Shown here: positions 9,043-50,283 of the stretch, one piece after another | Numbering within the stretch: the first letter of the stretch is position 1 | Layout: each line of letters begins with the position of its first letter | NCBI GenBank assembly: GCA_017404325.1 | Contig: JAFRCO010000013.1 | Coordinates: 1 to 64,000 of the forward strand | Direction: 5' to 3' | DNA from: Candidatus Saccharimonadota bacterium | GTDB lineage: Bacteria > Patescibacteriota > Saccharimonadia > Saccharimonadales > Saccharimonadaceae | DNA: 64,000 nucleotides | The notes under the pieces: generated by a model | Databases searched by the model: none | The model's input: only the letters and a program-made list of their open reading frames with translations | Told to the model about the DNA's origin: nothing | Program-made: the position numbers and the translations under genes

Positions 9043-9135
9043 GGAGGGTTACCCAAGTGGTTGAAGGGGACTCATTGCTAACGAGTTAGTCCGGGGCAAC
9101 CTGGAGCGGGAGTTCGAATCTCCCACCCTCCGCCA
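9043..9135 (+). tRNA. tRNA-Ser, anticodon GCU
   Basis: The acceptor stem pairs GGAGGGT (9043-9049) with ACCCTCC (9125-9131), and the sequence ends in G73 plus encoded CCA. The anticodon loop is TTGCTAA, read as GCT, for AGC/AGU. There is a long variable arm typical of class II tRNAs and a T-loop TTCGAAT. G73 and the long arm both fit serine. The last 19 bases are repeated at 9201-9219. Confidence 0.95.
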
Positions 9136-9136
9136 G

Positions 9137-9176
9137 AAATCTCCGGTGAGGTCGCTCGCGACGTCAGCGGAGATTT
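9137..9176 (+). terminator. Hairpin/terminator between tRNA-Ser and its 3'-end copy
   Basis: Outer stem AAATCTCCG (9137-9145) / CGGAGATTT (9168-9176) followed by TTT, with an inner GTCGC/GCGAC hairpin (9151-9162). It can act as the tRNA terminator. Confidence 0.7.
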
Positions 9177-9181
9177 TTGAA

Positions 9182-9219
9182 GGAGGAGCAGGTGATTATC
9201 AATCTCCCACCCTCCGCCA
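9182..9219 (+). repeat. Second copy of the tRNA-Ser(GCU) 3' end, preceded by GGAGG
   Basis: Positions 9201-9219 repeat 9117-9135 exactly (19 bp: part of the T-arm, the acceptor 3' strand and GCCA). The preceding GGAGG (9182-9186) can pair with CCTCC in the copy, so the segment could fold as a minihelix ending in CCA. The same arrangement follows tRNA-Ser(GGA). Alternatives are an att-site remnant or a tRNA pseudogene. A tiny frame (GTG 9193, Shine-Dalgarno AGGAGG) also reads through it but is not supported as a gene. Confidence 0.75.
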
Positions 9220-50111: not shown

Positions 50112-50201
50112 GGAAAGGTGGCCGAGTGGTTTAAGGCGCACGCTTGGAAAGCGTGTGTGCGAGCAATCGTACCGCAAGTTCGAATCTTGTCCTTTCCGCC
50201 A
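50112..50201 (+). tRNA. tRNA-Ser, anticodon GGA
   Basis: The acceptor GGAAAGG (50112-50118) pairs with CCTTTCC (50191-50197), followed by G73 and encoded CCA. The anticodon loop TTGGAAA reads GGA (UCC/UCU). It has a long variable arm and T-loop TTCGAAT. The final 20 bases, including two A after CCA, are repeated at 50264-50283. Confidence 0.96.
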
Positions 50202-50208
50202 AAATTAA

Positions 50209-50234
50209 CTAAAATAGAACTTGTTCTATTTTAG
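50209..50234 (+). terminator. Perfect hairpin between tRNA-Ser(GGA) and its 3'-end copy
   Basis: CTAAAATAGAAC (50209-50220) / GTTCTATTTTAG (50223-50234), 12 bp with a two-base loop, followed by ATAATTTT. Probably the tRNA terminator. Confidence 0.7.
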
Positions 50235-50244
50235 ATAATTTTAA

Positions 50245-50283
50245 GGAATGAGCAAAGATTATTATCTTGTCCTTTCCGCCAAA
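50245..50283 (+). repeat. Second copy of the tRNA-Ser(GGA) 3' end, preceded by GGAATGAGCA
   Basis: 50264-50283 repeats 50184-50203 exactly (20 bp). The upstream GGAA can pair with TTCC of the copy, and GCAA(A)G with CTTGT, giving a T-arm-plus-acceptor minihelix ending GCCA. The upstream motif GAGCA..GATTAT is shared with the copy after tRNA-Ser(GCU). The copy lies in frame upstream of the ABC ATPase start, but the ribosome-binding site supports the later ATG (50296). Confidence 0.75.

Follow-up and report, generated by a model that had tools for sequence, protein, structure and literature searches.

The window, by which we mean the whole stretch of 64,000 nucleotides of Candidatus Saccharimonadota DNA that was analysed, carries two intact serine tRNA genes, each followed immediately by a closed hairpin (H1) and then by a second, exact copy of its own 3′ end (Table 1). 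At tRNA-Ser(GCU) a 42-nt hairpin is succeeded by a 38-nt minihelix in which the copy of the tRNA end forms the 3′ strand. In the predicted fold of this minihelix, GGAGG pairs with CCUCC around an inner hairpin and GCCA remains unpaired (-13.2 kcal/mol, z -2.1); the whole 84-nt unit reached -39.1 (z -4.7), a value equalled by none of 200 shuffled sequences. The unit of tRNA-Ser(GGA) folds with z -5.4, again with no equal among 200 shuffles. A reading made from the sequence alone had pointed to the copy, the hairpin and a possible CCA-ending minihelix at tRNA-Ser(GCU); repeat search, folding and shuffles show that they exist beyond chance, and the same arrangement, with an 18-nt copy, H1 and a minihelix, was indeed found at tRNA-Ser(GGA).

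Table 1. Positions of the two unit-bearing serine tRNA genes of the window and of the parts of their units.
Feature	Position	Strand	Evidence
tRNA-Ser(GCU), intact	9043-9135	+	ARAGORN, Rfam tRNA
tRNA-Ser(GCU) 3′ end from T-loop to CCA, the stretch that is copied (identity over 9117-9135)	9114-9135	+	sequence, repeat search
H1 of the Ser(GCU) unit, closed hairpin beginning right at the CCA end	9136-9177	+	RNA and DNA folding
Ser(GCU) minihelix: GGAGG 5′ acceptor-like strand, inner hairpin and tRNA-end copy, CCA-terminal; class C	9182-9219	+	folding; same class in relatives (G004 Ser(GCU), Gln, Glu)
Exact 19-nt copy of the tRNA-Ser(GCU) 3′ end	9201-9219	+	repeat search, shuffle scores
T-run (TTTTT) adjoining the copied CCA, as after many tRNA genes of the genome	9220-9224	+	sequence
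tRNA-Ser(GGA), intact	50112-50201	+	ARAGORN
H1 of the Ser(GGA) unit, beginning right at the CCA end	50202-50241	+	folding
Ser(GGA) minihelix: GGAA:UUCC, inner hairpin, CCA end	50245-50281	+	folding
Exact 18-nt copy of the tRNA-Ser(GGA) 3′ end	50264-50281	+	repeat search

By repeat search, tRNA-Ser(CGA) and tRNA-Arg(GCG) of the window are without a unit, and a simple terminator scan flagged neither of the two window units. Comparison with the Ser(GCU) locus of a relative (G004) revealed an H1 that is retained in position and replaced in sequence. The longest open reading frame of the ABC transporter 3′ of tRNA-Ser(GGA) opens at an ATG within the unit (position 50248); the true start is probably an in-frame ATG about 48 nt further on.

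Distribution and anatomy of the units

The sequence-only reading had suggested looking for tRNA 3′-end copies downstream of other tRNAs, and such copies were found both in this genome and in relatives. In this draft assembly of 17 contigs, where the stretches around the tRNA genes were read, exact-match search detected copies of the gene's own 3′ end, 18-22 nt long, at 7 of 47 tRNA genes, those for Asn(GTT), Glu(CTC), Gly(TCC), Ser(TGA), Ser(GGA), Ser(GCU) and Tyr(GTA). The seven copies end 65-84 nt downstream of the tRNA, and the other 40 genes have no exact copy within 300 nt. In ungapped matching the true copies scored 18-22 against a shuffle maximum of 10, with the last few tRNAs (including Trp, Tyr and Val) covered by the exact-match search alone; a chance origin was rejected because these scores are far above those of shuffles. 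The serine specificity that had been proposed does not hold, given the copies at Asn, Glu, Gly and Tyr here and at tRNAs of 18 amino-acid classes in relatives.

Among the fetched loci, a sample enriched for units through the choice of loci, we read 146 units at 116 tRNA genes belonging to those 18 classes. Spacings lay within 58-84 nt in 141 of the 146, with few outliers, and 104 of 124 mismatch-free copies were 21-22 nt long, that is, they extend from T-loop nt 55/56 to A76. The inserts, of about 36-160 bp, are gene-free and lie directly 3′ of the tRNA, in some cases as tandem arrays. Of 100 genomes of the genus, 79 matched a pattern in which two T-loop-to-CCA stretches are separated by 38-63 nt, an upper bound to which tandem tRNA genes contribute; the reversed pattern matched none. 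Comparison with relatives that lack the copy, also suggested earlier, revealed patchy presence at one and the same tRNA: a query with the Ser(GCU) locus against 60 relatives gave 30 loci (own genome included), fetched regardless of copy, and a copy is present in 8 of them, once with three mismatches and in G006 as two in tandem. Several further Ser(GCU) loci hold degenerate remains of a copy. Downstream of tRNA-Ser(GCU) in G011 (L077) we noted tandem repeats of about 41 bp, each with GCGAATCCTCT from the tRNA T-arm.

An artefact of assembly or chance has next to no probability as an explanation. The genome is, it is true, a 17-contig draft, but the same kind of unit recurs, with unique flanks, in dozens of independent assemblies, and the match scores stand far above those of shuffles.

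Each unit follows the order tRNA-CCA, H1, linker, a strand that we call alpha, apex, and a copy with CCA at its end. Alpha complements this copy, over the T-arm and/or the acceptor 3′ strand, and tracks each tRNA's own sequence; in the fetched loci many H1 hairpins are followed by T-runs. In class A, which has the apex TTCTTCGAAT, alpha pairs with the copy over nt 56-62, forming 315 of 336 possible Watson-Crick pairs as compared with 266 ± 4 when the copies were shuffled; with one unit per tRNA type the values were 130 and 106 ± 3. The 23 distinct class A sequences contain 19 double-sided changes, a number that 0 of 500 shuffles attained, and sliding the partner destroys the pairing. Class B has the apex GACCTTCGGTG, and other units have longer apexes. 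Only in some units, those of class C, is the acceptor stem rebuilt, the pairing extending over the acceptor strand to give a minihelix with a CCA end. Both units of the window (genome G000) belong to this class, together with those at Ser(GCU) of G004, at two Gln loci (L092, L195) and at a Glu locus (L110).

Units of a further class of the window's genus, class D, are 172-180 nt long and form with the copy a stem of some 9-10 bp; they were read at tRNAs for Tyr (L107), Ile (L117) and Ser (L223). These three share conserved GAGAACCGTAGGTTCG and GGCGACGCCC segments and were matched neither by Rfam nor by the R1 model described below. In the units overall, stems vary and loops are conserved, as for functional RNAs, and in Rfam searches at the units only tRNA reached threshold, other weak matches falling below gathering scores. 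The mismatches in parsed units comprise 25 A·C/C·A and 7 G·U, many of the units having been parsed by best complementarity; a G·U bias as a test of the strand proved ambiguous for small units and was dropped. Folding gave the small units of the genus no advantage on the tRNA strand (43 better on top versus 89 on bottom).

An exact search of about 85,000 genomes with the class A hairpin GANTCGTTCTTCGAATCGANTC returned 42 stretches; every one bears Saccharibacteria in its title, and most come from ruminant gut. An intact tRNA was found upstream in 38 of the 42, and arrays have up to 5 units. In the four other stretches, the motif either lies near the start of the part that was read (L123, L136) or follows upstream remnants of tRNA ends (L141, L144). 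The exact class A and class B hairpins had no match in the viral contigs searched, and viral carriers of the units were rejected on this ground. Outside the genus, a phylum-wide pattern search returned mostly chance matches or neighbouring tRNAs. In five loci of other Patescibacteria (L288, L291, L292, L293, L295), hairpins come after a tRNA-Ser or tRNA-Gly, together with a stretch that looks like another tRNA's 3′ end. No description of such units was found in a literature search.

Reading of 30 ssrA loci revealed no copy in the 100 nt past the 3′ end of tmRNA. The tmRNA of the genus (L250-L279) has GGAGGCAGTATCC in place of the canonical T-loop GTTCRANYC. The lack of a copy at a tmRNA that is without the canonical T-loop fits recognition of a T-loop box.

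The R1 element and related layouts in other genera

In another genus of the same family (g31), an H1-like hairpin comes after most of the tRNAs that were read downstream, and many of these tRNAs also have a structured region of roughly 150 nt. For six tRNAs of this genus an exact or near-exact copy of the tRNA end was located at 175-217 nt, and for a seventh at 96 nt; the D-type regions of g31 fold better on the tRNA strand in 18 of 21 cases.

From the core of these regions as seed we derived R1, a new covarying RNA family of 89 nt with three hairpins. In its alignment, which comes from the same sequences as the structure, 96.8% of cells are paired and 20 of 27 pairs are changed on both sides, as many as in none of 500 shuffles. 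R1 has no match in Rfam. One conserved G·U pair is present in 22 of 23 sequences, which favours an RNA; the scarcity of other G·U intermediates speaks for DNA hairpins.

Of 247 genomes of the order, 86 contain R1; it was not detected in the window, in the searched loci of the window's genus or in the listed genomes of that genus. It occurs in two main contexts. In one, an intact tRNA lies 67-88 nt upstream and tRNA nt 57-76 directly follow the core; in the other, tRNA nt 1-24 directly precede the core, nt 29-38 follow it, and the intact tRNA lies 46-71 nt downstream. Loci with model matches include L338, L317, L344, L345, L348, L366, L387 and L397. As exceptions, some cores sit at the anticodon loop, and one (L371) is oriented opposite to its tRNA. 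A core in L348 (1502-1588) lies within an otherwise complete tRNA-Pro(GGG), near nt 22-26, in the manner of an intron. The copies of tRNA-Gln in L368 and of tRNA-Leu in L397 have two cores each, in the anticodon loop region and at the T-loop. A free-standing R1 (L350, about 1501-1620) is closed by a stem formed within it, CCGGCGGGTC/GACCCGCCGG, after which comes a terminator-like hairpin; no piece of a tRNA is attached. The R1 elements and the small units may form one family, as is suggested by shared layout and not by sequence homology.

Possible mobility, function and kinship of the units

We found no enzyme that could be assigned to the units. Of 100 genomes of the genus, 95 have a PF00589 match, as a rule a single and strongly conserved Xer. 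A dedicated tyrosine recombinase was ruled out by unit-bearing genomes in which the core Xer is the only PF00589 protein (G004, G010, G029, G076) or in which PF00589 has no match (G104 and the incomplete G006). Reverse transcriptase was rejected as well, PF00078 being absent from the unit-bearing G000, G004, G010, G029 and G118, and so was the Y1 (HUH) transposase, with PF01797 in 0 of the 16 genomes of the genus searched. Cas1 was discarded since PF01867 is present in only 8 of 100 genomes of the genus, G000 not being among them, and a unit was read in only one of the eight, G013. No autonomous partner of MITE type was found among the four families tested (PF00589, PF00078, PF01867, PF01797). 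Cargo islands were likewise rejected: within the loci read the copies stay inside a few hundred bp, apart from a single one at 596 bp, which belongs to an array as one more unit, and a search there for cargo elements sharing the same end gave none.

The window's own genome encodes a second PF00589 integrase (contig C7, 88909-89385), about 300 nt from tRNA-Thr and at the contig end; it is probably part of an ordinary integrative element. The eight genomes with Cas1 (G013, G014, G024, G027, G031, G065, G074 and G116, all of genus g1) have almost no matches to the unit pattern, a scarcity that may be phylogenetic.

The best explanation, which we hold tentatively and give nearly an even chance, is that the segment is one of a family of gene-less hairpin units that home to tRNAs and duplicate the tRNA end. 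The inserts (H1, linker and apex) form families common to different tRNAs and species, and the nearest neighbour of an insert lies mostly at another tRNA in another genome, although some locus labels may name one genome twice. Despite this sharing, the copy almost always matches the local tRNA. Shared inserts together with a local copy fit insertion with target duplication, and point mutation cannot produce a local copy. In some class A units alpha is mismatched to the local tRNA (for example, GACTCG at a CGAATC tRNA in L108 and L140), which fits a recent arrival from another tRNA.

Under this explanation, a unit would move from tRNA to tRNA and duplicate the T-loop-to-CCA target on arrival, the tRNA staying intact and the displaced 3′ end becoming the copy. 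Strand exchange or gap repair would most likely be guided by the folded hairpin arm with its conserved T-loop box, and the putative mobilising activity would come from host enzymes or from an unrecognised enzyme acting in trans. Pairing of alpha could be restored afterwards by selection or palindrome correction, and arrays would grow via tandem duplication. Against mobility stand the negative result for a mobilising enzyme among the tested families and the fact that no occupied/empty pair was seen that is clean and has an exact junction. Units were seen only 3′ of tRNAs, which fits a function in cis too, and the structural covariation, together with the fixed G·U of the R1 core in other genera, suggests an RNA function and speaks against mobile units. 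A broader proposal, which we hold to be less likely than not, is that structured RNA or hairpin modules of this order of Saccharibacteria are a previously unrecognised class of element that inserts at fixed tRNA loops, leaves an intact tRNA in place and spreads without encoding proteins. Their sites would be the T-loop and, in other genera, also nt 24-29 and the anticodon loop, with duplication of the tRNA end or of the 5′ half; the 89-nt R1 family would be the fuller form of the class and the window units a reduced one.

The main rival, rather unlikely in our judgement, is that the unit is a structured RNA acting in cis, a 3′ trailer of the tRNA that serves termination, 3′-end maturation or regulation. 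Alpha would then pair with the tRNA 3′ end or with the copy, the copy being a competitor that keeps the tRNA fold or reports its state, and H1, as well as the copy with its T-run, would serve as terminators. The strong folds of both window units, the T-runs after many H1 hairpins, the alpha-copy covariation, the compensatory changes and conserved G·U of R1 and the strand preference of the D-type regions of genus g31 all point this way. Yet the units are patchy at orthologous tRNAs and present at a small minority of the tRNAs here, the terminator scan flagged neither window unit, the small units of the genus fold no better on the tRNA strand, and one R1 core faces its tRNA in the opposite direction. 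Moreover, regulation leaves unexplained why the copy is exact over nt 56-76, including a mostly unpaired acceptor strand and CCA. Template switching during replication, in which the T-arm and an adjacent terminator hairpin repeatedly yield copies of the tRNA end, both inverted and direct, with neither mobility nor function, would account for the succession of tRNA end, H1, inverted copy and direct copy as the expected product of a double switch, and the tandem arrays and the scarcity of G·U intermediates in the hairpins agree with it. We nevertheless find it improbable, since the same loops, linkers and apex recur across many tRNAs and species and only alpha and the copy are local.

The sequence-only reading had also offered the scar of an integrase; in its classical form this would be a tRNA fragment displaced by a tyrosine-integrase island that has since decayed. 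Textbooks recognise such an event by an intact tRNA together with a displaced 3′ fragment, a combination that is found here, and a second integrase does lie near the end of contig C7. A scar is nonetheless very improbable: the intervals are of 58-84 bp with neither integrase nor cargo, genomes with the core Xer only, or with no PF00589 match, have units all the same, the loci read have no copy farther off than a few hundred bp, and decay would not produce uniform lengths, a tailored alpha or arrays. What stands of the sequence-only reading is therefore the copy, the hairpin and the minihelix, and its family of small mobile units comes close to the explanation we prefer; the scar fits poorly, and the restriction to serine tRNAs falls away.

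Several known systems share features with the units. The 178-bp repeats of E. coli tyrT (rtT RNA) lie 3′ of the tRNA and each contain about 19 nt of the tRNA 3′ end, but they form one locus with a longer period, whereas here dozens of tRNA genes and a hairpin architecture are involved; an identity of rtT type was not supported, as nothing but tRNA matched in Rfam at the units. Tycheposons of Prochlorococcus are targeted to tRNAs and leave partial tRNA copies, and they are kb-sized with recombinases and cargo. The units likewise lie at tRNAs and contain partial copies, but without recombinase or cargo. REP/BIME and MITE-like palindromes mobilised by RAYT are, like the units, short, gene-less, hairpin-based and multi-copy; the units differ in that they were seen only 3′ of tRNAs and carry a copy of the target, and the genomes searched have no Y1 transposase. 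As in MITE-like elements, the units are multi-copy and gene-less, share a sequence family and have a target copy on the far side. As regards integron attC sites, several unit-bearing genomes have no second PF00589 protein. Class C folds resemble tRNA-like minihelices and mimics (acceptor stem, T-arm-like hairpin and CCA), a likeness confined to some units; these would be the candidates for the tRNA-like mini-RNA that the sequence-only reading named as well.

Islands that integrate into tRNA genes use crossover subsites at the anticodon loop, the T loop or their junction (PMC4383910). Those catalogued by Islander (PMC4383910) are alike in the intact tRNA and the displaced fragment from T-loop to CCA; they exceed 2 kb, whereas the units measure 58-84 bp, have no integrase or cargo, occur in tandem and contain a strand tailored to the tRNA, and the integrase and length filters of Islander would drop them all. 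Casposons, through Cas1, integrate at tRNA 3′ ends with target duplication (PMC4046053), but the units have no genes and a duplication of 18-22 nt, and few genomes of the genus encode Cas1. The units resemble MITE-like elements and tRNA-targeted islands, but no enzyme of the four families tested accounts for them.

If mobile, the units would rank among the smallest site-specific elements that move, gene-less and of about 60-85 bp, able to coexist with essential tRNA genes because they copy the ends of these, and the enzyme involved would be new, or a host enzyme newly used. If they act as RNAs, bacteria with strongly reduced genomes would possess a 3′ trailer specific to each tRNA, into which a mimic of the tRNA end is built. 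In both cases, a partial tRNA copy in this group should not simply be taken for an integrase scar, and tRNA annotation and island finders must adapt to them.
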